Part shown: one piece after another, positions 21,163-37,334 of the stretch
Position numbering within the stretch: position 1 is the stretch's first letter
How the letters are laid out: every line of letters starts with the position of its first letter
Assembly: GCA_026991755.1 (NCBI GenBank)
Contig: JALXAX010000128.1
Location: 1-51,119, forward strand
Direction of reading: 5' to 3'
Length of the DNA stretch: 51,119 nucleotides
DNA from: Thiotrichaceae bacterium
Lineage (GTDB): Bacteria; Pseudomonadota; Gammaproteobacteria; Thiotrichales; Thiotrichaceae
The notes under the pieces: model-generated
Told to the model about the DNA's origin: nothing
What the model saw: only the letters and a program-made list of their open reading frames with translations
The model's database searches: none
Made by a program: the position numbers and the translations under genes

Positions 21163-21543
21163 CTACGTAGCTTCAGCCTCCACGGCCACACCCATGGCAA
21201 TCAACATACCATTCACTGTCGCCCCTTGTTGCATTTCTATCTCACTGTAGTGTACATCACCGTGGATAACAGATCCCTCAGCAAGAGAAAGACGCCTAAA
21301 GGCAAAAAGATTACCTTTCACTTGCCCTGCTACCACAACGTAAGGTGCTCTCACTTCACCTTGAATCATACATCCTTCATGCAAGATCAGCTTTGCATCA
21401 GAGTCCATTGATGCAACCACATTGCCAATAACCCTCCCTCTAATATGCAACTCTTTAGAGAAAGATAAATCCCCCAAAAATTCAACATCTTGCATAAGGT
21501 CTGACACATGCAAACTTAAATCTTGATCGTTATTTTTTTTCAT
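21163..21543 (-). CDS. Bactofilin
   Basis: The 126-residue protein has the bactofilin (DUF583) beta-helix core: LSFSKELHIRGRVIGNVVA, KLILHEGCMIQGEVRAPYVVVAGQVKGN and RLSLAEGSVIHGDVHYSEIEMQQGATVNG, with short flexible tails. Bactofilins polymerise without nucleotide and act as scaffolds for cell shape or polar protein placement. In Myxococcus xanthus the bactofilin BacP works with the small GTPase SofG in placing type IV pilus motors. That precedent is notable because an MglA-like GTPase gene set begins 1 kb away. The 3' end abuts a family B repeat. Confidence 0.92.
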   Translation of the reverse strand: MKKNNDQDLSLHVSDLMQDVEFLGDLSFSKELHIRGRVIGNVVASMDSDAKLILHEGCMIQGEVRAPYVVVAGQVKGNLFAFRRLSLAEGSVIHGDVHYSEIEMQQGATVNGMLIAMGVAVEAEAT

Positions 21544-21690
21544 ACTCTCATATCGCTCAACTTAATAATTACAGACTTCGCATTAATCGCTGAAAACAGA
21601 ACATTACCAGGAGGCTGAAGAATAAGGAGAATTAAGTCACTTACTTTCAGAACTTATCACATAATGCAAAGATGATTAAAAGGAATCAAT

Positions 21691-22077
21691 TTAATTGTGA
21701 TTACGGGACATCTCTAGCTCTTTCTCTAAAGCTAAAATAGTGTCATCCCTTAATTGCAAATCATCCATCAACACCTGTATTTTTTCTAATAACGTATTTT
21801 TTGACCCAGCAGGCTCTGGAGTATTTGACTTACTCATTTTTTGTAACTGCTCGTTACTTAACTTAAGCTCTCTGCGCAACTGTGCATTATCATCAAAACA
21901 TTTATCAAGACGATTCTTAATAGAAAATGCATCTTCATTTTCATCGATAGACTGAATGGCTTGTACCTCTACAGCTTGAGACCTGTTTCGCAAATGGTTA
22001 AACCACCAACCCACTCCAACTCCTGCCAAAGCCGCGAGTATTAAGTACAAAGCCATTTGTAATACTAAATACATCAT
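21691..22077 (-). CDS. Membrane-anchored coiled-coil protein, unknown
   Basis: Not assigned to a family. The 128-residue protein has an N-terminal membrane segment (residues 4-27, with GVGVGWWF), a charged linker, then two helical stretches with heptad character (about 55-82 and 93-125), separated by a KSNTPEPAGSKNT turn. AAGGG lies before the start. It is 147 bp upstream of the bactofilin gene on the same strand and could be co-transcribed. A membrane tether for a cytoskeletal scaffold is a plausible inference only. Confidence 0.75.
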   Translation of the reverse strand: MMYLVLQMALYLILAALAGVGVGWWFNHLRNRSQAVEVQAIQSIDENEDAFSIKNRLDKCFDDNAQLRRELKLSNEQLQKMSKSNTPEPAGSKNTLLEKIQVLMDDLQLRDDTILALEKELEMSRNHN

Positions 22078-22557: not shown

Positions 22558-23253
22558 ATGCAAAAAACTATTAACGAAAGCGATCTGTTGAATGCCAGTA
22601 TTGACTTGATCCTTCCTCAGGAAACACGTTTACGATTTTCTGGCGATTACGAGTCCATTACTGCATGGCGATTACTTTCTCGTTACATCTCTCGCTACCC
22701 TCATGATCTAAGAGTTCATGCACAAAGAATTCTACTGGCTGTGGAAGATAAACTTACGGATTATTTACCCGGTGCATTGCAAGACTTAATGATAGCTCTT
22801 TCAGGTAAAGGAAAACCCTTTTTCACTGATTTATTGGAACAGGCTAAGCCTGATTTGTCAGAAGAAAATTACCAACACTTATTAGAACAGTTTGATAAGA
22901 ACGATCACCAAAATCAATGTTGGAAAAAAGGCTCAATACTGGCAAATGGAGTTTGTAATGGCCAAACCATGATCACTTTTGATAGCGCGGAAGAAGAGTC
23001 AGGCTTCGCTAGCACACTCGAAGAAGCCCGTGCTTACATAGAATATGGTCAAATTGAAGAAGCGCGTGAATTGCTCGAGAATGATCTATTAACTAACCCA
23101 TACTCAAACGACATAGAGGAAGAACTACTGTACTTATATCAATCGTTACAAAATCGCAATCACTTGGACATAATGACTAATAAACTACAAGAACTAGGCA
23201 CTGAGCTTACGCCAGAATGGAAGCAATGCCTAAAAAACGCGAATTCTTGGTAA
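22558..23253 (+). CDS. FimV/TPR-like cytoplasmic protein, first gene of the GTPase-roadblock set
   Basis: The 231-residue protein has no signal or membrane segment. Residues 153-215 (TLEEARAYIEYGQIEEAREL onward) form TPR-like helices closely resembling the C-terminal domain of FimV-type proteins, including the one encoded at 26414. The N-terminal 110 residues are helical and not recognised. FimV proteins organise type IV pili and pole identity in Pseudomonas and Shewanella; a soluble relative here is inference. The ATG has no clear Shine-Dalgarno sequence. The next gene starts 9 bp downstream. Confidence 0.75.
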   Translation: MQKTINESDLLNASIDLILPQETRLRFSGDYESITAWRLLSRYISRYPHDLRVHAQRILLAVEDKLTDYLPGALQDLMIALSGKGKPFFTDLLEQAKPDLSEENYQHLLEQFDKNDHQNQCWKKGSILANGVCNGQTMITFDSAEEESGFASTLEEARAYIEYGQIEEARELLENDLLTNPYSNDIEEELLYLYQSLQNRNHLDIMTNKLQELGTELTPEWKQCLKNANSW

Positions 23254-23262
23254 AATAATAAA

Positions 23263-24735
23263 ATGGGCATTCAAAATAACCAACAACCTCTCAATGTGTA
23301 TCTTTCAAATATAAGTCCGCATAGCCAAGCTATACTTGAGTTTTTTATTGGCAGCACCGGCGGAAAATCGTTCAGCCTGGTATCCACTCCTGCTGATGCA
23401 GAAGTTTATATTACAGACTTCGACTTTCCTGGCTCTAAAGATCATTGGGAAGCAGAACATGCTATTTCTGCAAAGCCTTGTATCGTTTTATCAATGGAGA
23501 ACCCGAATAACCCTCATGTACAGTGGGTAGCCAAACCTATTACTGCTCAAGCACTTATTGCAGCGGCTAAAACAATATCTAATATAATGCACAGTGGGGT
23601 TGATATAACTACTTCTGTAGAAAAGCCGACCAAAGAAGCAACTACTTTACCCCCTCCTCCACTGCCTAGATCAACACTAGCGACATCACCCTTTAGTCAA
23701 AAAAGCGTCATCGACCCCCCTTTGGTGAAGTCTAAGGTAGGCGTTCTCCCCCGTAAACCGACACAAACTCCCTCAATAGCGAAAAGCATAGCTACTGAAG
23801 ATCTTGACGACGGTGATACATCTGTCGTAGTCAGAACACCTAAATCAACTACAACTACGACTTCCAAAACAAAGGTTGCTATTCCATCGTCGAATAAGAC
23901 CAATCAGGATATAAAGAGCAAGGGTCAAGTTAATAAAACAACTCAAGCTCTAAAAGAAGAACCCGAAAAGGCCTCAAAAGAGGTTTCTATTGCTAGAGCT
24001 GAGAAAGCTAAAAAACGATGGGAGCTACTGTGTGGCACAAAAGAAAATATTGCTGCTTTGGCTCTCAAAAAAGATGAATCGCTTGTCTATAACAGTGAGC
24101 ATTACTTCCAAGGTACACTTATAGCTGCTTTACGTTTGGCAAAACAAACGGGACAAGTTGTACAGATAAAATATGCACCCCATCAATTCTATATTTGCCA
24201 CCATGAGTATCTTGTTTTTAGTCCATTAGCACCTCAGTCTGATGAGTATGCACAGCTTTGCCATACCTTGGTAAAACCTGGACAAGTTAACTTACATATA
24301 CTCACGGGTACCGAATCAGAAGAAATACGCAAAAGGATTCACTCGGAAGACGCGCAGTTCACCTACAACTTAGAATCCTTTGTGTGGACAAGTTGTTTAC
24401 TAACCTCTAAAGGTCGCGTACCTACCTCACTTGATTGTGACGACCAGTTCTTACTTAAATACTGGCCTAATTTCACCCGTATTGAAAACTTTCCTTTCGC
24501 TATGAAAGTAGCCGCTACTTGGCAAAAGAAGCCTTACAAACTCAATGAAATCGCAAGAGAAATGGATGTCCCTCTAAGATATGTCATCGCCCTATACAAT
24601 GCATGTGTCGGGCTTTCTCTCTTTGAAACTGATAGTTCAAAAGTCCAGCAAAAAACCACCTACGAACCAAAGAAAAAGAGTGGTTTAATTGCAAGACTCT
24701 TTGGTCGCCTTATAAAAAGTGAGCCCACCAGCTAA
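23263..24735 (+). CDS. Pseudo-receiver plus winged-helix-like protein
   Basis: Not a named family to my knowledge; 490 residues. Residues 10-105 look like a degenerate response-regulator receiver: acidic ITDFDFPG (Asp52, Asp54) where the phosphate acceptor would be, Ser77 in IVLSMEN, and WVAKPI (Lys91) like the conserved K-P. A Pro/Ser/Thr/Lys-rich linker (110-240) follows. The C-terminal 250 residues end in a winged-helix-like region (about 430-478, with KPYKLNEIAREMDVPLRYV) and a basic tail. It joins the GTPase gene by a TAATG overlap, so the products are likely made together. Confidence 0.75.
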   Translation: MGIQNNQQPLNVYLSNISPHSQAILEFFIGSTGGKSFSLVSTPADAEVYITDFDFPGSKDHWEAEHAISAKPCIVLSMENPNNPHVQWVAKPITAQALIAAAKTISNIMHSGVDITTSVEKPTKEATTLPPPPLPRSTLATSPFSQKSVIDPPLVKSKVGVLPRKPTQTPSIAKSIATEDLDDGDTSVVVRTPKSTTTTTSKTKVAIPSSNKTNQDIKSKGQVNKTTQALKEEPEKASKEVSIARAEKAKKRWELLCGTKENIAALALKKDESLVYNSEHYFQGTLIAALRLAKQTGQVVQIKYAPHQFYICHHEYLVFSPLAPQSDEYAQLCHTLVKPGQVNLHILTGTESEEIRKRIHSEDAQFTYNLESFVWTSCLLTSKGRVPTSLDCDDQFLLKYWPNFTRIENFPFAMKVAATWQKKPYKLNEIAREMDVPLRYVIALYNACVGLSLFETDSSKVQQKTTYEPKKKSGLIARLFGRLIKSEPTS

Positions 24736-25277
24736 TGAGTCATACTAACCGAAAAATAATTTTTACTGGCCCTGTAGGATCAGGCAAAACCACTGCCATC
24801 AATTCGATCAGTGATATTGAGATGGTTTCGACAAACCAGGAAGCGTCTGATATGACGCAAACAAGGAAAAAGAATACCACCGTTGCTATGGATTACGGTG
24901 TTATTAAATTAGGTAATGATGAAAAAGTTCATCTATACGGCACCCCAGGCCAGGAACGCTTTGACTTTATGTGGAGCATCTTAACCAAAGGTGGTATTGG
25001 TCTCGTATTACTTTTAGACAATACCCGTAAAGACCCTTTCCACGACATGAAGTTTTACACCCATTCTTTTAAAGATTTTATAAATGAGAATCAAATGGTT
25101 ATAGGTATCACTCAAACAGATAGACAAAAAACGCCCTCTATTACTCAATACCGAGATTGGTTAACCGAACTCGGGTTTGAGGCTCCTATATTTGAAGTAG
25201 ATGCTCGCTCTCGTGATGACATCTCACTTTTATTACAAGGACTTCTCTTATCACTAGACCCAGGAGTTGTACAATGA
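24735..25277 (+). CDS. MglA/Ras-like small GTPase
   Basis: The 180-residue single-domain GTPase has a P-loop GPVGSGKT (12-19), a switch I threonine around Thr48-Thr49, a G3 motif GTPGQERFDFMW (69-80), a TQTD (126-129) in place of the usual NKxD, and a VDARSRDD segment (155-162) at G5. It belongs to the bacterial MglA/Rup-type group that pairs with roadblock proteins. MglA in Myxococcus switches cell polarity and drives gliding and pili. It overlaps both neighbours (1 bp with the pseudo-receiver gene, 4 bp ATGA with the next gene). Confidence 0.9.
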   Translation: MSHTNRKIIFTGPVGSGKTTAINSISDIEMVSTNQEASDMTQTRKKNTTVAMDYGVIKLGNDEKVHLYGTPGQERFDFMWSILTKGGIGLVLLLDNTRKDPFHDMKFYTHSFKDFINENQMVIGITQTDRQKTPSITQYRDWLTELGFEAPIFEVDARSRDDISLLLQGLLLSLDPGVVQ

Positions 25278-25918
25278 GTGAATACATCTTACAAGATGAC
25301 CTCTATCTAGGCGTGACTCCAGCAGGTAGTTATTACGCAGTTCAAGACAATACTGAGGAGGTTGGGCGCACCTTTTTAAGACGTTTACTACAAAACCCGC
25401 AAAGCATTCAATTGAACTCAGAAATAGCAAGTAACTATAGCGGGCTAGAGGGCAATAGTGCACTCGAGTTTATCCATTGGATGCAAAATGCGGGTATGGT
25501 TTATGGAACAGAAACCCCCGAAGAAGCACCTCAAGAAAAACTCGAAAAGATTCTTCCAAGCCTCCTTCAACCCATCGCAGATAGCGAAAAGGTTGTCATT
25601 GCAGAATCTCAAGGATTCTACCTTGGTGCCTCAGGGTTTGCTCATGAAGCCTCAGAAGAATTAGCAGCAATGAGTACAGAGCTTATTAAAACTTATGATC
25701 GTCACAAGCTATTACTTAACGGAAATCTTCGCCTTAAACAACGAGGCTGGGGAATCATTGATGGCACAGGCAGTTCCGAAATTGGCTTCTGGCCTTTATT
25801 TATTGGTGATGAAATTTTCACTCTAATTGCTGAAGGTATGCCACAATTCAATCAGACCGCATTCAGACAGTTAATTTGGGCACTTTCCATTCGTTATGAC
25901 AACCGAGTGTTTAATTAA
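25274..25918 (+). CDS. Divergent roadblock-like protein with helical N-domain
   Basis: Not recognised by name; 214 residues. The C-terminal half (about 105-210) has the roadblock/LC7 pattern: KVVIAESQGFYLGASGFAHE (strand-turn-strand followed by helix), EELAAMSTELIKTY, two further strands and a long last helix. The N-terminal 80 residues look like a small winged-helix or PqqD-like domain. If correct, the set encodes two roadblock proteins for one GTPase, with this one as the atypical partner. The start overlaps the GTPase stop codon (ATGA). Confidence 0.7.
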   Translation: MSEYILQDDLYLGVTPAGSYYAVQDNTEEVGRTFLRRLLQNPQSIQLNSEIASNYSGLEGNSALEFIHWMQNAGMVYGTETPEEAPQEKLEKILPSLLQPIADSEKVVIAESQGFYLGASGFAHEASEELAAMSTELIKTYDRHKLLLNGNLRLKQRGWGIIDGTGSSEIGFWPLFIGDEIFTLIAEGMPQFNQTAFRQLIWALSIRYDNRVFN

Positions 25919-26023
25919 AGCCATGCAGCACCCATCAACCTAAAAATAATAAAAACAACAACTAACTTTATTTATCAAAGGTAAACTTTGATTAAGATAC
26001 CTTTAAATGTGTAGGAGAATTTT

Positions 26024-26386
26024 ATGTTATCAGAAATGTTAAACTCAATCTTAAGCGACCTGAACGGGTCTAGTACCGAAATCGAAGCATCAGCTGTTAT
26101 ATCAACAGATGGGCTCATTATGGCCTCTATGCTCCCTGCGGGAATGGATGAGGACCGAGTCGCAGCGATGAGCGCAGCTCTATTATCATTGGGCGACAGG
26201 ACAGCAGAAGAACTTGAACGTGGATCTCTAGAGCAAGTGCTTATCAAAGGAGACAACGGGTATATTTTAATGACCCATGCGAGTAATGAGTCAGTCCTTA
26301 CTGTGCTTGCTAAGCCAAAAGCGCGACTTGGTCTGATCTTTCTTGATGTTAAACGAGCCGCTGCTAATATCACTAAGCTACTGTAA
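26024..26386 (+). CDS. Roadblock/LC7 (MglB-like) protein
   Basis: The 120-residue protein is a clear roadblock domain: IEASAVISTDGLIMASMLPAGMDEDRVAAMSAALLSLGDRTAEEL, then LEQVLIKGDNGYILMTHASNESVLTVLAKPKARLGLIFLDVKRAA. Such proteins act as dimeric GTPase-activating or scaffold partners of MglA-like GTPases. AGGAGA lies before the ATG. The 105-bp gap from the previous gene shows no terminator, so it is probably in the same transcript. Confidence 0.95.
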   Translation: MLSEMLNSILSDLNGSSTEIEASAVISTDGLIMASMLPAGMDEDRVAAMSAALLSLGDRTAEELERGSLEQVLIKGDNGYILMTHASNESVLTVLAKPKARLGLIFLDVKRAAANITKLL

Positions 26387-26413
26387 CTTAGACAAATAAC
26401 ATCAGGGTAACTC

Positions 26414-27898
26414 ATGTCTGCAATCCTACATCCGCCTATAACAAGCTTATCTCCAGTGATCAAAAAAGTATTCTTGGCATTACTGTTAATGCTGGTTATC
26501 GTATCTACTAGTTTTGCTAATAGAACTTATGGTCCTGTTAAAGCAAACGACTACCTAAGCAAAATTGTTAAGAAGAATTATCCTCATAGCACATTAACAA
26601 AGCATCAAATCATGGTCGCTATTTTACGTAGCAACCCTGAAGCGTTTAGAGGTGGAAATATTCATTTCCTAAAACAAGCTGTTACTTTAAACCTACCTAA
26701 TGAAGCGACTATTGCTAGCATTACACCTACTGAAGCATCTTCTATTATCGCCAAACACCTTGTTTTTTTCAAAAAAGGAAAAACAGGTAGCTTTACACAT
26801 GAGCCTCTAGTCTCAATTAATAATAAAACTACAACCCAAGCAGACTTAGATAAAAAAAGTAGTGATACAAACACAGTTCAAGTTCAAACAACTCAAACTA
26901 AAAATACTTCATCCTCAACTATTCCAACAAAAATTAAAATTGAAGTACGCAAACAAAAGCAAACACAAGTCAATGAACTCAAACATGTAAAATCACTAGA
27001 AGAAATTAGTATTCAACAAAATAAAACACTTAACACGCTTGATGAGCAAATACGTGTCCTAGAGGAAGTGCTTGAAAAAGATAATGCTAAAGAAGTTGAA
27101 AGGAAAGAAAGCAAGGAAAGCTCAACACCTTCTACAACCCCAACTGAAGAAACTCAAACCACCAATGCGATACCAACCGATCAAAGACAAACTACTGACA
27201 AGGCCTCAACACCCCTTGCCAATACAACAGAAGAACCTGTTATAGAACAAAAAGGTACCCAGGAAGATGAAGAAGATACAGCAAAAAATGCGATTTCTTC
27301 ATTAGAATCCGCGCTATCACAATCCTCTGTCACACCTGAAGAATCAAACAAAAAGACAAAGCAAACAACATCCTCCAAACCTAATCAAGAAGAGCCTCCT
27401 GTACAACAGGCAATCGAAACACCGAAAGAAAATACTAAAACCGAGTCTTCTATCGTTAAGTTGATCAAGGGGCAAAGTAAACCCAAGATCATTGCTTTAG
27501 TTTCTGCTTTTGTCATTGGCTTATTTACTCTTGGCTATCTGTTATTTGGTCGTAATCCACAGCAGGCTAATGATCCCCAGCAGATCAGCACAGATAAAAC
27601 ATTCGAACTCACTGATACAAATAGTTCGTCTACTAACACCAACGTAACATTAGATACTCCCCACGAAGCTGAGCTATTAAACCCTGTTATTAAAAAGCAG
27701 TCATCTAGCCCTGATTCTGATGATTCTCCTATTTCATCAGAACAAAGAGAGAAAGAGGCAGAAATGAAAATCAATATGGCTCGTGCTTATATGGACATGG
27801 GTTTTATAGACTCGGCTAAAGAATCACTTGAGGAAGTTCTAAAAGAAGGTACTGAAGAACAAAAAGATACGGTTAAACAAATGCTAAGCATGCTGTAA
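26414..27898 (+). CDS. FimV-like LysM/TPR membrane protein
   Basis: The 494-residue protein is built like FimV: signal/anchor (16-36), N-terminal FimV/LysM domain (about 37-105, with TYGPVKANDYLSKIV, IMVAILRSNPEAFRGGNI and VTLNLP), a periplasmic linker with a coiled coil (about 190-225) and Thr/Glu-rich low-complexity sequence, a membrane segment (about 358-378) and a cytoplasmic TPR-type C-domain (448-494, KINMARAYMDMGFIDSAKE). It is shorter than Pseudomonas FimV (about 900). FimV binds peptidoglycan and marks poles. The gene lies 27 bp after the roadblock gene and could link the GTPase module to the envelope. Confidence 0.9.
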   Translation: MSAILHPPITSLSPVIKKVFLALLLMLVIVSTSFANRTYGPVKANDYLSKIVKKNYPHSTLTKHQIMVAILRSNPEAFRGGNIHFLKQAVTLNLPNEATIASITPTEASSIIAKHLVFFKKGKTGSFTHEPLVSINNKTTTQADLDKKSSDTNTVQVQTTQTKNTSSSTIPTKIKIEVRKQKQTQVNELKHVKSLEEISIQQNKTLNTLDEQIRVLEEVLEKDNAKEVERKESKESSTPSTTPTEETQTTNAIPTDQRQTTDKASTPLANTTEEPVIEQKGTQEDEEDTAKNAISSLESALSQSSVTPEESNKKTKQTTSSKPNQEEPPVQQAIETPKENTKTESSIVKLIKGQSKPKIIALVSAFVIGLFTLGYLLFGRNPQQANDPQQISTDKTFELTDTNSSSTNTNVTLDTPHEAELLNPVIKKQSSSPDSDDSPISSEQREKEAEMKINMARAYMDMGFIDSAKESLEEVLKEGTEEQKDTVKQMLSML

Positions 27899-28302: not shown

Positions 28303-29349
28303 ATGTCTAAATATTCAATATCTAATAAACAGCTTTTGCTCCCGATAGCATTACTCTCCACCGTAATCATTGCGCTATTAGGTATCTCTGTTTTTGTTGT
28401 AGCACCTAACATTCAGCATAGTCTTGCTAAAGAAATTAAAGACGAACTCTCCAAGCACTCCATTCCCGCCAACATTACCTTATCAGGTCGAGATGTTGTT
28501 TTAAGTGGAACCGTTAAGAACCTTGAAACCAAGAAGAAGGCTACTTTAATAGCTGAAAAGGTATGTGGTATACGCTATGTCGACAACCAACTACTTACAG
28601 AGAAAACTGAGAACCTAGCCTTATTATCTAGTAACAATAGTGATGAAACGATAGCAAAAGGAAAGCTTCATAAAAAAGAAACATCCACGAATACTAACCT
28701 GTCAGAAGCGACACTGAACAAAACCAATAATGAAGAAGAAAAAAAGGTGCCTCAGTTAGCTAAAACACCCATACAGAAAAAGGCTGAAATACCTGAACCA
28801 AAAACTGAAGACAACGCGACAATACCGTCAACAAAAACCTCTGACCTGAAAATCGCTTCAAATAAACAACTTAGTAGCACCCCATCTCATTCAAAAGAGA
28901 CAGCAAAGCCTTCCACCACTATCGAACCAACCACAGACAAGAAAACCACCAAAGAAAAGCACCCATCCCAAAAGCATAACAGCTCTGGAAAAACACTAAA
29001 CTATGAAACAATGCTGGCAGCGATGAATGCTTATAACCAGCAAAAAGGAAGAAACCCAAAAGCTAATAAAACAGCCAAAGGTAAGAAAATTCACACCTTG
29101 CAGCTTCAATTCAAAAAGAACACAGATAGTGTTCTGACTGGATCACATAATGAGCTTGATAAATGGGTCAAACACCTCAAGAACAATAATTCACACATTA
29201 AAATAATCGTAGCTGCTGATAATACTAAGCTAGCTGAAAATCGTGCCCAAGCCATTAAGAAGTATTTAAGCTCACAGGGCATTGAAGCTCTGAGAATTAA
29301 AACATCAGGTGAAAGTGGAAAAGAGTCTATCCGCTTGATTGAAAACTAA
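28303..29349 (+). CDS. BON/OmpA-like membrane-anchored protein (ArfA-like layout)
   Basis: The 348-residue protein has an N-terminal membrane segment (12-33), a BON-like unit (about 40-105, with IPANITLSGRDVVLSGTVKN), a long Lys/Thr/Ser-rich linker (110-235) and a short C-terminal OmpA-type domain (about 262-348, with VAADNTKLAENRAQAIKKYLSSQGIEALRIKTSGES). TM-BON-OmpA order is known from mycobacterial ArfA/OmpATb. The OmpA domain is expected to touch peptidoglycan. It may belong to the preceding gene set, but two repeats separate it from the FimV-like gene. Confidence 0.8.
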   Translation: MSKYSISNKQLLLPIALLSTVIIALLGISVFVVAPNIQHSLAKEIKDELSKHSIPANITLSGRDVVLSGTVKNLETKKKATLIAEKVCGIRYVDNQLLTEKTENLALLSSNNSDETIAKGKLHKKETSTNTNLSEATLNKTNNEEEKKVPQLAKTPIQKKAEIPEPKTEDNATIPSTKTSDLKIASNKQLSSTPSHSKETAKPSTTIEPTTDKKTTKEKHPSQKHNSSGKTLNYETMLAAMNAYNQQKGRNPKANKTAKGKKIHTLQLQFKKNTDSVLTGSHNELDKWVKHLKNNNSHIKIIVAADNTKLAENRAQAIKKYLSSQGIEALRIKTSGESGKESIRLIEN

Positions 29350-30066: not shown

Positions 30067-30192
30067 TATCGTACCTTGCCTCGTTTCTTTTGTAATATGA
30101 TGTCAGACTAAACAAGTTCTGATTGGCTTATTGTCGATCACTCACCATCAGACTTGTGGCTACTTACATCAAACATTCGGATACTTACTATA

Positions 30193-31164
30193 ATGGAAGA
30201 TAATTCCACTTTTAACAAATTACGCGACTATATCAATGGACATATCATTGGTCAGGATAGATTAGTCAACCGACTCATGATTGCATTGCTAGCGGATGGA
30301 CATCTTTTAGTTGAAGGTGCACCTGGACTCGCGAAAACACGAGCCATTCGTATATTGAGCCAAGGCTTGCAAGGTGATTTTCAACGGGTGCAATTCACCC
30401 CTGATTTGTTACCTGCCGATATTACAGGGACAGAAGTATTCAACTCACAAGACAGTAGCTTCAGCTTCCAACACGGCCCGCTATTTCACAACCTGATTCT
30501 TGCAGACGAGATTAATAGAGCGCCCGCCAAAGTACAATCAGCATTACTAGAGGCTATGGCAGAACACCAAGTGAGCGTAGCAGGTACAACTCACTCATTG
30601 CCAGAACCCTTCCTTGTCATGGCGACTCAAAACCCAATAGAACAAGAAGGCACCTATCATCTGCCCGAAGCTCAGCTTGATCGCTTCCTAATGCATGTCA
30701 CCGTTGATTACCCCAGCCTAAGTGATGAAAAAAACATACTCCATCTAGGCCGACGCGAGGCGATGCATCAGTTAGTAGTGGGTGAGAAAAAACAGAAATA
30801 TGTACTCAGTCAAAAACACCTCAAAAAAGCTAAGAAAGCTGTTTTAAGCATCCATATGGCAGCTAATATTGAACAATATTTACTACAATTAGTCATGTCG
30901 ACCAGGAAACCCGAAAACTACTCTAAGTCTTTGGGCAAGACTATCCTATATGGTGCTAGCCCACGCGCCACATTAGCCTTGGATCGATGTGCGCGTGCTC
31001 ACGCTTGGCTTGCAGGAAAAGACTATGTAGGCCCCGAAGACGTGCAAAATGTAGTACACGATGTGATGCGGCACAGACTGATCCTAAGCTTTGAAGCCGA
31101 AGCTGAAGGACGCACCGTCGACTCGGTTATAGATGAATTACTAACTCATGTCGCTGTTCCCTAA
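30193..31164 (+). CDS. MoxR-type AAA+ ATPase of the Bat operon
   Basis: The 323-residue protein starts MEDNSTFNKL (an ATG 13 codons earlier is not conserved in style). MoxR features are HIIGQDRLVNRLMIALLADGH, Walker A GAPGLAKT (42-49), Walker B LADEINRAPAKVQSALLEAM (103-122), sensor MATQNPIEQEGTYHLPEAQLDRF and the arginine finger region SPRATLALDRCARAHAW. MoxR ATPases act with von Willebrand A-domain proteins as chaperone-like pairs. The genes that follow encode exactly such partners. Confidence 0.95.
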   Translation: MEDNSTFNKLRDYINGHIIGQDRLVNRLMIALLADGHLLVEGAPGLAKTRAIRILSQGLQGDFQRVQFTPDLLPADITGTEVFNSQDSSFSFQHGPLFHNLILADEINRAPAKVQSALLEAMAEHQVSVAGTTHSLPEPFLVMATQNPIEQEGTYHLPEAQLDRFLMHVTVDYPSLSDEKNILHLGRREAMHQLVVGEKKQKYVLSQKHLKKAKKAVLSIHMAANIEQYLLQLVMSTRKPENYSKSLGKTILYGASPRATLALDRCARAHAWLAGKDYVGPEDVQNVVHDVMRHRLILSFEAEAEGRTVDSVIDELLTHVAVP

Positions 31165-31193
31165 ACTATTCATTATTGATCGAAAATATATAA

Positions 31194-32162
31194 ATGAGTG
31201 AAACCAAAGAAGCACTGGATGAAATCACCTACTGCTCGCTATCTTTCTTATTAAAGCAGAGCGCTCAAGCTCGCCTGCTTAAAAGAGGCAGTAAAAACAT
31301 TCATGCTCATCAATCGGGTCAGCACTTATCCCTTTATAAAGGGCGAGGTATGGACTTTACTGAATCTCGTTTATACCAATCAGGCGACGATGTACGTTTG
31401 TTAGACTGGCGAGTGACTGCACGAACAGGAAAACCTCATACTAAAGTCTTCTCAGAAGAGCGCGAACAACCTGTGATGTTAATCATCGACATGCGCCCAG
31501 CTATGTTTTTTGGAACTCAGGGCTGTTATAAATCCGTCATGGCTGCAAAAGTAGCTAGTCTGCTAGCATGGAAAAGCCTACAAGACGGCGACAAAGTGGG
31601 TGGCATTATTATACCGTCATGCGAACAGGCAAAGATCCATAAGCCTAGCCGAAGCCAGTCAGCTGTATCACGCTTTATCAACACTATAGCTCACGCCTCC
31701 GAGCCTTGCAGCACCACACAAAAACGTCCATTAGTGAAGACCCTCAAACAGCTACACCCCCTTATTGAAACAGGCACTCAAATCATTATGCTGAGTGATT
31801 TTAGAGGTCTCGATAATAAGGCAGTACAACAACTCACCGCTCTTGCCAGCAAATCATCACTCCACTTAATTCATATTAGCGATCCATTTGAAATTAAAAT
31901 AGCTAGTGATAACAATCCTGACAGTCTGAACAATGGAGAAGATAAAGAAAAACCACCCTCTCTCGCTAACCTACAGGTCAGTAACGGAAGTCAAACATTA
32001 TCACTTAACAAAGAAGCCCTCTCAAACTATCGACAAGTGTGGCAAAACCGAATAGACACGCTCACTGATTTATCGCACCACGATAATATCCACTTACTCA
32101 ACCTATCTACCACTGACACCCCCTCTTCTCTCTTGTTAACCCTTTCACGAGGCATACAGTGA
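31194..32162 (+). CDS. DUF58 (MoxR-associated) protein
   Basis: The 322-residue cytoplasmic protein has the DUF58 hallmark GRGMDFTESRLYQSGDDVRLLDWRVTARTGKPHTKVFSEEREQPV (residues about 51-95), followed by a vWA-like fold beginning MLIIDMRPAMFFGTQG, in which the metal-site residues are only partly kept. DUF58 proteins follow MoxR in Bat operons; they probably link the ATPase to its clients. The gene lies 29 bp after moxR and overlaps the next start codon by GTGA. Confidence 0.93.
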   Translation: MSETKEALDEITYCSLSFLLKQSAQARLLKRGSKNIHAHQSGQHLSLYKGRGMDFTESRLYQSGDDVRLLDWRVTARTGKPHTKVFSEEREQPVMLIIDMRPAMFFGTQGCYKSVMAAKVASLLAWKSLQDGDKVGGIIIPSCEQAKIHKPSRSQSAVSRFINTIAHASEPCSTTQKRPLVKTLKQLHPLIETGTQIIMLSDFRGLDNKAVQQLTALASKSSLHLIHISDPFEIKIASDNNPDSLNNGEDKEKPPSLANLQVSNGSQTLSLNKEALSNYRQVWQNRIDTLTDLSHHDNIHLLNLSTTDTPSSLLLTLSRGIQ

Positions 32163-32734
32163 ACGGCACCGACTTACCCATTCGAGATATTCACCTACCT
32201 GATAGCAGCTTATGGTGGCCATTAGCACCTGGCTGGTGGCTCTTGATATTACTAACCCTCTTTATTACAGGGCTTATCTATCAGAAAAGAAAACGAAACG
32301 CTTTACATCCACTCGCTAAAAATACCAAGAAAACACTTTCGGAAGCTCACGCGCTACTCACTAGCATTGCGACTAAACATGGGAGTAGTAAAAAAGAAAA
32401 CAGTGGACAACAAACCATAAAAGCCCTATCAGTTCTTTTACGACGCACCGCCATCAGCTTATACGGAGATGAAAGTGTAGCGGGGCTAGCGGGTGAAAAA
32501 TGGCTTGAATTTCTTGATGACAAGGGCAATACCAAAAACTTCTCTCAGGGTATGGGACACCTATTCCTTGACCTCCCCTATCGTCCCAAGCAACCCGTTA
32601 ACCCCTCAAACTCCACCGAAGAACATAACAACAAAGAGTTAGATAGCCTACTACTAATAACTCAACAATGGCTCAATGCTCAAGCACACACTGGCAACAC
32701 AAAGGGTAATAAGGAGGAAAGCCATCATGTTTGA
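32159..32734 (+). CDS. DUF4381 membrane protein of the Bat operon
   Basis: The 191-residue protein begins with GTG overlapping the DUF58 stop codon. It has the DUF4381 pattern: RDIHLPDSSLWWPLAPGWWLLILLTLFITGLIYQKRKR, with one membrane span at about 18-41, then a helical cytoplasmic domain with LLRRTAISLYGDESVAGLAGEKWLEFLD. The family is found almost only between DUF58 and BatA genes and its role is unknown. It overlaps the batA start by 8 bp. Confidence 0.9.
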   Translation: MNGTDLPIRDIHLPDSSLWWPLAPGWWLLILLTLFITGLIYQKRKRNALHPLAKNTKKTLSEAHALLTSIATKHGSSKKENSGQQTIKALSVLLRRTAISLYGDESVAGLAGEKWLEFLDDKGNTKNFSQGMGHLFLDLPYRPKQPVNPSNSTEEHNNKELDSLLLITQQWLNAQAHTGNTKGNKEESHHV

Positions 32735-33773
32735 ATTTCAGTGGCCCTGGCTTTTTATTTTATTATTCTTACCGTTACTGCCTCTACTATTACCTCAATC
32801 ATTTAGAAGAAAGGTAACTCCTGTAGAAAGAACGCTAACATGCAAGACGCAAGCATCACTAAAAGTGCCCTTTTTAGAAGAGTTTATCGACCCCAAACAA
32901 CTTCAACAAAAGCCTTCTACTTCACTATTGAGAAAAATATTACTCATTTCCGCATGGTGCTTATTCATTAGCGCTTTAGCCAAACCCGTATGGATTGATG
33001 GTGTTGCCAACTTACCTGTCAGTAGCCGTAATATTATTGTAGCGGTAGACCTATCAGGTAGTATGTCCGAACGTGACTTTTTACTAAGTGGTAGTAAAAT
33101 AAGCCGTCTAGCTGCCATCAAAAAAGTAGCCCGTGATTTTATCAGCAAGCGGGGAGGAGACCGTGTTGGTCTTATTCTGTTCGCAGATCACGCTTACTTA
33201 CAAGCCCCATTGACTCGCGACTTAACCACTGTAATGACATTGCTTGATGAAGCCGAGCAGGGACTCGCAGGTGATCGAACAGCATTAGGCAATGCTATCG
33301 CTCTTGCCGTAAAAAAAGTACAAGAAAAACCAAAGCAGGAACATGTATTAGTACTAATGACCGATGGCACTGCAACCGTAGGTATGGACGTTAATGAAGC
33401 TATTGAATTCGCAAAAAAAGTAAAACTAAAGATTTATACCATTGGGATTGGCTCGAACACTACTACAAAATCAACACTAGCAGGCAGAAACAAAGCCATC
33501 AGCACTTCCCCTGATGACGCAACTTTAAAACAAATAGCTCAACAAACAGAAGGATTTTATTTCAAAGCAAACAACATGCAACAGCTTCAATCCATCTATG
33601 AAAAGATAGATAAATTAGAACCGGTTATCGACCTTTCACAAGCTTGGCACCCTACCAAAGACATATTCTACTTACCACTCTCTTTAGCTTTGGCATTGGT
33701 CAGTTTGCTCTTCCTGAGCAACTTGCTTCACTTATATTCAATACGCTTCAAAGAAGGGCAAAGTCATGTTTAA
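32727..33773 (+). CDS. batA: BatA-like von Willebrand A-domain membrane protein
   Basis: The start at 32727 (MFEFQWPWLF) follows AAGGAGG; upstream in-frame ATG codons have no such site. The 348-residue protein has an N-terminal membrane segment (6-23), a second (71-87), a vWA domain with the metal-site DLSGS (108-112), GDRVGLILFADHAYLQAPLT and TDGTATVGMD, and a C-terminal membrane span (about 312-331). BatA proteins were named in Bacteroides aerotolerance; envelope stress or export roles are proposed. It overlaps batB by 8 bp. Confidence 0.93.
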   Translation: MFEFQWPWLFILLFLPLLPLLLPQSFRRKVTPVERTLTCKTQASLKVPFLEEFIDPKQLQQKPSTSLLRKILLISAWCLFISALAKPVWIDGVANLPVSSRNIIVAVDLSGSMSERDFLLSGSKISRLAAIKKVARDFISKRGGDRVGLILFADHAYLQAPLTRDLTTVMTLLDEAEQGLAGDRTALGNAIALAVKKVQEKPKQEHVLVLMTDGTATVGMDVNEAIEFAKKVKLKIYTIGIGSNTTTKSTLAGRNKAISTSPDDATLKQIAQQTEGFYFKANNMQQLQSIYEKIDKLEPVIDLSQAWHPTKDIFYLPLSLALALVSLLFLSNLLHLYSIRFKEGQSHV

Positions 33774-35487
33774 GGAATATTTTCTTTATCCTCTTTGGTT
33801 ATGGCTGATTCCTTTCGCTTTATTAGGCTTCTATGGGTTGTATCGTTATCAACAGCAACAAAATCATTGGGATAATTTTATTGATAAAGCGCTACGACCT
33901 TTTGTCATTTCAAAAGCAGACAATAATAAAACCCAACATGCTTTTATCATCTATGCGATAGCATCAACTCTAGCTATTTTGGCACTCTCAGGACCAAGCC
34001 TGCATAAAGAAGAAATCCCACTCTATGAATCCAACCAGGGACTGGTTGTTGTCCTAGATTTATCAAAATCCATGTTAGCGGAGGATGTAAAGCCTAATCG
34101 CCTAAAACTCGCAAAACTAGCGCTGATTGAGTTACTCACCCCACAAAAAGATGCACTCAAATACGATGGATATGTAGGCTTAGTCGTCTTTGCCGCCGAT
34201 GCTTTCGCAGTGACTCCACTCACCAATGATGCTGAAACCATCATGGCTCAGCTTACCCACATGTCACCCGATACTATGCCCGCACAAGGAAGCCGATTAG
34301 ATAAAGCTATTAATCTAGCCAATGGCTTATTAACTAACTCAGGGTACGCAAAAGGAAATATTTTACTGGTTACAGATGGCTTCAGTGATCTTGATAAAAC
34401 AATACAAGCCACCCGCTCTTCAACAAAAAACGGTTTTAAAGTCTCTGTATTAGCCGTAGGAACTCCGCTAGGTGCGCCGATACCGCTAAATACTTCCTAC
34501 AAAACGTCACAAAATACAAAAAAAGCTAATTTTTTATCCGACAAACAAGGTAAAAGGATTATCGCAAAACTGGATGGAAAATCCCTGCAATCAATTGCCG
34601 ATACAGGCAAAGGATACTATCTAGAGTTATACAAAAACCCAAACGCAATAGCTACCTTACTAAAGCACTATCAACCTACCGCAACATTCAAAACCCATGA
34701 TAGCGATGAAAAAAATACGCTTGAATATAAAGTTAATGCGGGTATCTGGTTGCTTTTCCCACTATTGGTTTTACTAATCTATTCATATGCTCGTGGTTTT
34801 ATAATGATAGCGTTTATCATCCTTTTATTACCTGTAGAACCAGTTTATGCATTTGACTGGAGCAATTTATGGCTTAATCAACAGCAACAGGCAAAGCGGT
34901 TACTTGATAAGGCATCGGTAGACACTCAACCTGTTAACAACACCACTGAAAACGCTGTTAAGGCACAACAGCTGTTTACAGATACTCAATGGAAAGCCAG
35001 TGCCGCTTACCGGGCCAAAGACTATGCATTAGCCGCACAATTATACTCAGAGGAAAACACTGCAACCGCTTGGTATAACAAAGGTAATGCTTTACTTAAT
35101 ATGCAAGAAATAGAAAACGCCATCGAAGCTTATAAGACTGCTCTTAGCATGCAACCTCAGCATGTTGATGCAAACTATAACCTGCAATTAGCTATAAAAC
35201 AGCAAGAAGAAATGACTAACGCAATGCCAGACAATAAAGCCCTATTGCAACCTACTGACTCCAATGATTCAAGCAACGCTCAAAATACAGCTGATGTGGA
35301 AATTGAACAAGCTAAAGCACCTTTTACCGCTCAAAATGAACAAATAAACGAGCAACAAAAAGAACAGCAAGCTTATGAAAAACAGTGGCTAAAAAGCATA
35401 CCTGATGACCCCTCTATGCTATGGCGTAAAAAGTTTAAGTTTCAGTATAAAAAGCGTAACCAACAATCAGAGATACAACCATGGTAG
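33766..35487 (+). CDS. batB: BatB-TPR fusion (BatB/BatC-like)
   Basis: The 573-residue protein has membrane spans (about 6-24 and 58-77), a vWA domain with the metal-site DLSKSM near residue 95 and AADAFAVTPLTNDAETIMAQ, two spans (about 325-362), then a periplasmic or cytoplasmic TPR part (about 400-490, SAAYRAKDYALAAQLYSEE and TAWYNKGNALLNMQEIENAIEAYKTAL) and a Gln/Glu-rich end. In Bacteroides BatB and BatC are separate; the fused form is common in Proteobacteria. It overlaps batD by 7 bp. Confidence 0.93.
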   Translation: MFKEYFLYPLWLWLIPFALLGFYGLYRYQQQQNHWDNFIDKALRPFVISKADNNKTQHAFIIYAIASTLAILALSGPSLHKEEIPLYESNQGLVVVLDLSKSMLAEDVKPNRLKLAKLALIELLTPQKDALKYDGYVGLVVFAADAFAVTPLTNDAETIMAQLTHMSPDTMPAQGSRLDKAINLANGLLTNSGYAKGNILLVTDGFSDLDKTIQATRSSTKNGFKVSVLAVGTPLGAPIPLNTSYKTSQNTKKANFLSDKQGKRIIAKLDGKSLQSIADTGKGYYLELYKNPNAIATLLKHYQPTATFKTHDSDEKNTLEYKVNAGIWLLFPLLVLLIYSYARGFIMIAFIILLLPVEPVYAFDWSNLWLNQQQQAKRLLDKASVDTQPVNNTTENAVKAQQLFTDTQWKASAAYRAKDYALAAQLYSEENTATAWYNKGNALLNMQEIENAIEAYKTALSMQPQHVDANYNLQLAIKQQEEMTNAMPDNKALLQPTDSNDSSNAQNTADVEIEQAKAPFTAQNEQINEQQKEQQAYEKQWLKSIPDDPSMLWRKKFKFQYKKRNQQSEIQPW

Positions 35488-37334
35488 TTTTTTCCAGAAC
35501 GATCTTCTCTATTGTACTGATATTTCTATTGGTTATCACGACGCTGCAACCTGTATTAGCCACACCAGCAACTGTACACATTAGTCCTAGCAGCGCCATT
35601 AAAGACCAGACGGTAACACTAACAATTTCTGTCGATCCGAAAAACCAGCAACACCCCAATCTTTCTGTATTAGAAAATAATTTTCAGATATTAAAAACCA
35701 GTACCTCAAGTAGCTTACGTCATGAAAAAAGCAAAACACTGATAAGAAAAAACTGGCTGGTACTATTGTTGCCTCTAAAGAAAGGGAAGTTAGTCATTCC
35801 TTCAATTAAAATTGGTAACGAACGAACTCCTTCAACCAGTCTACTTGTTACTAATAAAATGCCTAAAGCTGAAATAAAATATTCAGCGCCTAACCAAAGT
35901 CCCAAGGATATATTTGTAGAAGTAGAAACTGACTTACAAGAAGTGTATGTGCAAGGTCAACTTATTCTTACTCAAAAAATATACCACTCTATTCCTCTTA
36001 AAAGTGCAAATCTAAGCCCCCCCAAAACTAAAAATAATGCAGCTGAAATTATCCCGTTAGCCAAAGACAAACCTTACTATTGGAAGATACAAGGTAAGCG
36101 TTATCACGTTATTGAGCGCAGTTATGCATTATTCCCTAAGCGTAGTGGTGCATTACATATCGAGGAAGCTGAATTTAGCGGACAAACCAAAGCTCGGTCA
36201 GCAAGCTTGTTAAGCATGCTAGAGGGGGTTGATAAGGTTAAAGAAGGATCAACTTCACAGAAAAAAGTTACTGACCGTACTTCCGCCATTAGCCTTACTG
36301 TAAAACCACAAGCTGATTCATTTACAGATAGCCATTGGCTACCTGCCAAGAATATAACCCTCTATGGAAATTGGTCTCAGCCGCCCAGCCAAGTAGAAAG
36401 GGGAGAACCCGTTACTTTACAACTAGGCATTATTGCGGATGGTTTACGCGCTGAACAACTGCCTGATCTTCAACTAGCCATACCTGAAGGAAATAAAAGC
36501 TATAAAGAACCACCTGAACTTCATAACAATATTACACTAACGGGCATAACTGGCACTTGGAGCCAGAAAATAACCATTATTCCCTCGACAGCAGGATCTT
36601 TGGTTATTCCCGAACTACAGTTAGCTTGGTGGAATGTACTTACAGAACAAAAAGAAACTACTATATTTAATCAACAAGTATTAGGGGTTAAAACTAACGC
36701 AAAGAAAGAAGAAGCAACAGCCTCTTTGAGCACCTCTCCTAGTCCAGATGAGTCAAAACCAAAAGTGGCAGCCCTGACTAACCCTACAGAAAATACTAGT
36801 AAACAGGATACTTCAGCTCCCCCTATTCCAGAACCAACTACCGTAATCTTTGATAAAGAGAAACTTTGGATACCCTTGCTATTGCTATTATCTGGCTACT
36901 TCATCTATAAAATTCAGGAGCGATCCTCTTTAATAAAAAAGAAAAGAAGCACTCCCACTAAAAAAGAATCAGACAAAACCCCTGAGCATAAAAATGACAA
37001 ACTCATTCTTGATGCATTAAAACTAGCATGCCTCGAAAACAACCCACAAAAAGCACAGATGCTACTCTCCCAATGGGCTTCACTAGCCGACATTACGCCA
37101 CCTACATTGGACGGCATATCCGAAGCTAGGAATGCTTTTTTACAACCAGAAATAGAACAGCTAAGCCGTACTCTTTATAGTAAAACTAAAAACCAAACAT
37201 CCTCAAAATGGAACGGAAGTAATTTATGGAAAGCAATCCAAAAATATCCGTATTCTAATGACGCTAAAATACCAAAACAACGAGTTCACCTACAAAAGCT
37301 GTATCCCATTGAAATGAATACTCATCATACTTGA
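35481..37334 (+). CDS. batD: BatD-like protein
   Basis: The 617-residue protein has a signal peptide (1-28, ending VLATPAT), then several beta-sandwich domains typical of BatD (VHISPSSAIKDQTVTLTISV, FVEVETDLQEVYVQGQLILTQKIYHS, YHVIERSYALFPKRSGALHI), a low-complexity segment, a membrane span (about 462-480) and a basic cytoplasmic tail. BatD probably sits in the periplasm with BatA and BatB. It is the last gene of the operon, followed after about 160 bp by a strong hairpin terminator. Confidence 0.92.
   Translation: MVVFSRTIFSIVLIFLLVITTLQPVLATPATVHISPSSAIKDQTVTLTISVDPKNQQHPNLSVLENNFQILKTSTSSSLRHEKSKTLIRKNWLVLLLPLKKGKLVIPSIKIGNERTPSTSLLVTNKMPKAEIKYSAPNQSPKDIFVEVETDLQEVYVQGQLILTQKIYHSIPLKSANLSPPKTKNNAAEIIPLAKDKPYYWKIQGKRYHVIERSYALFPKRSGALHIEEAEFSGQTKARSASLLSMLEGVDKVKEGSTSQKKVTDRTSAISLTVKPQADSFTDSHWLPAKNITLYGNWSQPPSQVERGEPVTLQLGIIADGLRAEQLPDLQLAIPEGNKSYKEPPELHNNITLTGITGTWSQKITIIPSTAGSLVIPELQLAWWNVLTEQKETTIFNQQVLGVKTNAKKEEATASLSTSPSPDESKPKVAALTNPTENTSKQDTSAPPIPEPTTVIFDKEKLWIPLLLLLSGYFIYKIQERSSLIKKKRSTPTKKESDKTPEHKNDKLILDALKLACLENNPQKAQMLLSQWASLADITPPTLDGISEARNAFLQPEIEQLSRTLYSKTKNQTSSKWNGSNLWKAIQKYPYSNDAKIPKQRVHLQKLYPIEMNTHHT

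Follow-up and report, generated by a model that had tools for sequence, protein, structure and literature searches.

Polarity control by MglA and MglB is known in detail mainly from Myxococcus, and the landmark that marks the pole for gammaproteobacterial pili is FimV. The Group 1 module of Myxococcus xanthus (MglA/MglB/RomR/SgmX) consists of a GTPase, a roadblock GAP, a receiver-type adaptor and a TPR effector, and the actinobacterial conservons (Group 2, CvnABCD) keep a GTPase and a roadblock protein together with helper proteins in a single operon. The Group 3 MglA systems of beta- and gammaproteobacteria were defined by Wuichet and Sogaard-Andersen in 2014 (PMC4316618). In the sections of that paper that describe them, the GTPase has the motif GTPGQ, a Thr replacing the Arg finger, no Lys in its G4 motif and DAR as its G5 motif. 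It is accompanied by one MglB or two and by a conserved protein whose receiver-like and winged-helix ends are separated by a variable linker.

The locus described here lies in a 51,119-nucleotide stretch of DNA (the window) from a genome of the Thiotrichaceae (Gammaproteobacteria), and its nearest named loci were found in Thiotrichaceae MAGs, the closest D protein being 79% identical. Six tightly packed plus-strand genes, A to F, had been proposed from the sequence alone. All six were found as open reading frames, with overlaps of 1 bp between B and C and 4 bp between C and D, and with gaps of 9 bp (A-B), 105 bp (D-E) and 27 bp (E-F). Neighbourhoods were annotated with iterative profiles, first in 39 GTPase loci of the same family and then in 80 named loci, which are those found by a profile of D.

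Gene C (24735..25277, plus strand) encodes an MglA-family small GTPase that matched the Ras, Roc and ATP_bind_1 models of Pfam. Among the 79 cassette GTPases, the G3 motif GTPGQ was present in 78 and TT, with Thr in place of the G2 Arg finger, in all 79; G5 was DAR in 76, and [NT]KxD occurred anywhere in only three. The GTPase of the window carries GTPGQ and TT, together with TQTD as a G4 motif without Lys and DAR as G5. The Group 1 motif TVPGQ was found in none of the 79 sequences. The coupled roadblock protein is E (26024..26386, plus strand), a roadblock/LC7 protein of MglB type that scored above the Pfam cut-off (Robl_LC7, E 1.1e-18) and has solved roadblock relatives. With these Pfam matches and motifs, the sequence-only reading was right to call C a Ras/MglA-type GTPase and E a true roadblock protein. 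The third partner, B (23263..24735, plus strand), adjoins C in 78 loci, and its ends are conserved and its middle variable. It is a putative pseudo-receiver protein by alignment, in which the receiver Asp and Lys-Pro are conserved in Thiotrichaceae and the acidic pair was not seen, with a variable linker, a winged-helix-type C-domain and a terminal basic amphipathic helix. The receiver-like and winged-helix folds are those predicted for the Group 3 partner in the published sections (PMC4316618), and a sequence profile of B gave no match among solved structures. On motifs and gene partners, B-C-E is assigned as a Group 3 MglA system in the sense of those 2014 sections, and the core of the cassette is thus already known (PMC4316618).

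A tree of 64 GTPases compared cassette proteins with non-cassette relatives only. The cassette GTPases clustered in it, and a single clade was not supported, there being four label changes. Several variants of the GTPase were also seen. The window's genome holds a second GTPase of the same family on contig C51 (L061:6914-7987, minus strand), with a C-terminal extension that appears roadblock-like by sequence and has no Pfam roadblock match among the best 25; similar proteins occur in Leucothrix (L062, L064), and a related GTPase adjoins a PAS/PhnD-like pair in L234. In a gammaproteobacterial MAG (L132:1596-3086) the cassette GTPase bears an N-terminal Ser/Thr protein kinase domain (PF00069). 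In Thiothrix singaporensis (L087:7005-8993) B and C lie in one frame, possibly an assembly error since the frame has an ambiguous residue.

Of 36 genomes from the same family, among them that of the window, 35 gave a match to the GTPase family; the one negative genome was 69% complete, as was one genome in which only a paralogue was found. Among the 80 named loci, D and E were present in all, C in 79, B in 78 and A in 74, and wherever A, B or C was missing the contig end falls on that side. The order A-B-C-D-E was kept as far as the contigs reach, with one permutation, E-PAS-PhnD-A-B-C-D, in a Methylophilaceae locus (L128). This conserved A-E order is far beyond chance. Carriers include Thiothrix, Thiofilum, Thiolinea, Leucothrix, Cocleimonas, Methylomonas, Methylovulum and Acidithiobacillus, as well as Chromatiales and Methylococcaceae. 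In a sample of 274 genomes drawn evenly from the class, D was present in 26, and strong A matches (E below 1e-13) were likewise found in 26, of which 24 were also D-positive. No cassette GTPase was found in three D-positive genomes (G135, G180, G232), perhaps because the first-look filter has limits.

Twenty GTPase loci without D carried B in 14 cases and E in 17 and never A, and B-C-E is therefore the general Group 3 unit, with A and D marking an extended form. The shared features with the Group 3 description are the B-C-E set, GTPGQ and DAR, and the MglB-type roadblock; what differs from its 2014 sections is that A and D are always added here, that B ends in a tail helix, and that an Aer-PAS/PhnD-like pair and FimV-like and bactofilin neighbours occur (PMC4316618). 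A and D are an elaboration that is absent from those sections, and no description of the extended gene set was found in literature on roadblock proteins together with FimV, with MglA and Acinetobacter, or with the host genera of the cassette. The suggestion that no described system has this exact gene set thus holds, within that literature, for the additional A and D and not for the B-C-E core, described in the 2014 sections (PMC4316618). The cassette extends a known system in a conserved and as yet uncharacterised form, and it is no new kind.

Gene D (25274..25918, plus strand) had no match in Pfam or NCBIfam. An AlphaFold2 model built on 47 aligned D sequences (mean pLDDT 90) predicted an N-terminal winged-helix-like domain followed by a full roadblock topology, alpha-beta-beta-alpha-beta-beta-beta-alpha. 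For residues 87-210 the best solved matches include a Streptomyces roadblock protein (Z 10.9) and M. xanthus MglB (Z 9.3). As modelled, D is a clear roadblock fold, in agreement with its first description as divergent and roadblock-like. The best structural match of D is thus to a roadblock protein from Streptomyces, as in the conservons; unlike these, the locus has no histidine kinase, and its helper proteins and neighbours are others.

Gene A (22558..23253, plus strand) encodes a soluble protein with only sub-threshold TPR matches in Pfam and NCBIfam. Its model is all-helical, with the TPR at the C-terminal end. Beyond A itself, a profile of A found a segment of FimV-sized frames in most genomes, and all nine of the matched frames that were tested carry the FimV core. 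The reverse profile, made from the internal cytoplasmic TPR of FimV, gave 71 matches among the 5388 ORFs of the 80 loci, and all 71 were A. Since the profile matches are reciprocal, A is FimV-related through the internal cytoplasmic TPR, and its description as a soluble FimV/TPR-like protein held. A as a true FimV was ruled out, the core domain being absent and the C-terminal model TIGR03504 reaching 21.0 bits, under the cut-off of 30.65. When A was compared with known folds, only generic TPR and helical proteins came up and no Foldseek match fell under E 0.001, so that the structure adds nothing to the FimV link, which rests on the profiles. The TPR of A could fill any TPR role. A functional parallel with the M. 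xanthus module may be drawn protein by protein, in which A would stand where SgmX stands, as a parallel only; in contrast to that module, TVPGQ is absent here, the genes are clustered and B is not RomR.

Gene F (26414..27898, plus strand) encodes a short FimV-like protein of 494 aa with a signal sequence, FimV core, TM helix and FimV C-terminal domain, and it exceeded both curated cut-offs (TIGR03505, 56.7 bits against 43.45; TIGR03504, 46.2 bits against 30.65), which bears out its first naming as FimV-like. Compared with FimV/HubP, F has the core and the C-terminal domain and is short, whereas A has the internal cytoplasmic TPR, is soluble and lacks the core domain. The window's genome has three FimV-core proteins, among them a long canonical FimV elsewhere, and F is therefore an additional short FimV-like protein. 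F adjoins the cassette in 36 of the 80 loci and is absent near it in Cocleimonas, Methylococcaceae and others; as a universal member of the cassette it was rejected, and it is mainly a Thiotrichaceae neighbour, specific to lineages. The expected co-occurrence of six genes was thus found for A to E, which are colinear in the 80 loci, and not for F, and the placing of FimV and a GTPase in one operon stood by way of A in the universal cassette and not by the lineage-specific F. The sequence-only reading held on both counts on which it had staked itself, since A to E co-occur in relatives and the putative FimV and roadblock domains are related to FimV and to roadblock proteins respectively. Elsewhere, Leucothrix-type loci (L096, L099, L101, L103) have two tandem FimV-like genes after E, and frames of about 1000 aa in genus g4 (G008:C1:1006356-1007258 and G014:C1:179991-180860) gave several consecutive FimV-core matches, as if the core were repeated.

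In 32 of the 80 loci the cassette is preceded by a bactofilin gene, which stands in either orientation and is mainly a Thiotrichaceae neighbour. In the window it is divergently transcribed (21163..21543, minus strand; Pfam E 3.3e-22), and between it and A is a gene for a small TM/coiled-coil protein (21691..22077, minus strand) that is conserved in Thiotrichaceae and had no family match in Pfam. The region of interest should extend upstream to these two genes (21163-22077). In M. xanthus, the GTPase SofG works with a bactofilin. On the other side, a BON-OmpA protein (28303..29349, plus strand) is found 3' of F in 18 loci, its membership in the unit being uncertain. Farther downstream in the window, genes of MoxR-type ATPase, DUF58-like, two von Willebrand factor type and BatD-like proteins follow consecutively on the plus strand (30154-37334), which looks like an ordinary MoxR/Bat operon. 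An envelope or cell-shape function, in which the switch and its neighbours (bactofilin, TM protein and the peptidoglycan-binding F and BON-OmpA) would organise the wall or filament or holdfast structures in place of pili, is consistent with the bactofilin 5' in 32 loci and F and BON-OmpA 3' in Thiotrichaceae, whose carriers form filaments and holdfasts. We regard it as quite unlikely, as Methylococcaceae, Chromatiales and Acidithiobacillus keep the cassette while bactofilin, F and BON-OmpA are absent.

Directly 3' of E, 36 of the 80 loci carry a gene for a protein of about 160 aa whose single PAS domain most resembles the one that binds FAD in E. coli Aer (8dik, E 1e-43). In 37 of the 80 there is a gene whose product, about 248 aa long, has a PF12974 (PhnD-like) domain and no visible signal sequence. 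Close PhnD-like members were found in 12 genomes of the 274-genome class sample, all 12 cassette-positive (hypergeometric 3e-14, ancestry not corrected). Nine Thiotrichaceae loci without an adjoining pair had PAS and PhnD-like genes together elsewhere, L229 with an orphan copy of E: at L229:6044-7610 an orphan roadblock protein close to E lies beside the two genes, apart from the main cassette. Both genes were in trans in G001 and G003, and both were absent from the window's genome, G004 and G005. This pair was missed in the first reading, as were the tail of B and the upstream bactofilin. The tight co-occurrence of these partners with the cassette would also suit a switch that senses redox state or nutrients and acts on metabolism or a second messenger, to which FimV and bactofilin would be incidental neighbours. 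Such an output seems distinctly improbable, given that the universal member A bears a FimV-related TPR and that the cassette stays where the sensors are absent, as in the window's genome and many Thiotrichaceae. A chemosensory pathway built around the GTPase is a possibility that we raise tentatively, with signals passing from PAS and PhnD-like proteins to the roadblocks, the tethered MglA, the FimV-type TPR and polar pili. The Ras-like GTPase might there, on an equally tentative footing, take the place of a histidine kinase, with the Aer-type PAS reporting redox state and the PhnD-like protein acting as a cytosolic receptor.

The C-terminus of B was a basic amphipathic helix in about 77 of 79 B proteins (for example GLFSRLLKRLLGGG), with a mean net charge of +2.8; the two exceptions are one fused and one truncated frame. 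The tail suggests a peripheral membrane anchor and membrane tethering rather than plain DNA binding. This bears on the main rival explanation, a transcriptional pathway in which the GTPase and the roadblocks would control B and D and the winged helices of these would bind DNA. It is the one offered in the 2014 sections for Group 3 systems, and both a winged-helix-type C-domain in B, by the fold prediction published there (PMC4316618), and the modelled N-terminal winged-helix-like domain of D would accord with it. However, a basic amphipathic tail so near to universal is unusual for a soluble transcription factor, and winged helices double as protein-protein modules, and we consider DNA binding unlikely as the output.

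A polarity or motility output of the cassette is plausible. PilT was over cut-off in all 26 D-positive genomes compared to 232 of the 274 overall (p 0.01, ancestry not corrected), a weak association because PilT is nearly universal in the class. Flagellin was found in none of 22 Thiotrichaceae genomes, and type IV pili are therefore the most likely motility target in that family. In Snodgrassella, mutations in an orphan mglB belonging to a Group 3 system were associated with changes in how colonies spread and in competition within the gut, and the link to pili was inferred by the authors (PMC11112851).

We give about an even chance to an MglA/MglB-type switch, sensor-fed in many relatives, that acts on FimV- or bactofilin-linked machinery at the pole, with type IV pili as the likeliest target. 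By its motifs, C would cycle between GDP and GTP, and E and D, the one a roadblock by family and the other by predicted fold, would form a regulatory platform that stimulates or times GTP hydrolysis. B may serve as a pseudo-receiver/winged-helix scaffold whose amphipathic tail would tether the switch to the inner membrane. A would read C-GTP, and its TPR, for which the relationship to FimV was observed, may engage partners of the polar landmark. An Aer-type FAD-PAS could, in many relatives, feed in redox or energy state and the cytosolic PhnD-like protein ligand state, probably via E. In Thiotrichaceae the output would be coupled to the dedicated FimV-like F and the bactofilin, most likely placing or activating type IV pili.

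In sulfur oxidisers, methanotrophs and iron/sulfur acidophiles alike, the conserved cassette unites an MglA switch of Group 3 with a FimV-type domain. The uncharacterised Group 3 systems thereby gain a parts list, comprising A, D, the membrane-type tail of B and the PAS/PhnD-like pair, and the inputs and readers of a bacterial Ras-like switch become testable in culturable Thiothrix and Methylomonas. Since likely redox and nutrient sensors adjoin it in many relatives, the cassette may link sensing to surface grip or movement.
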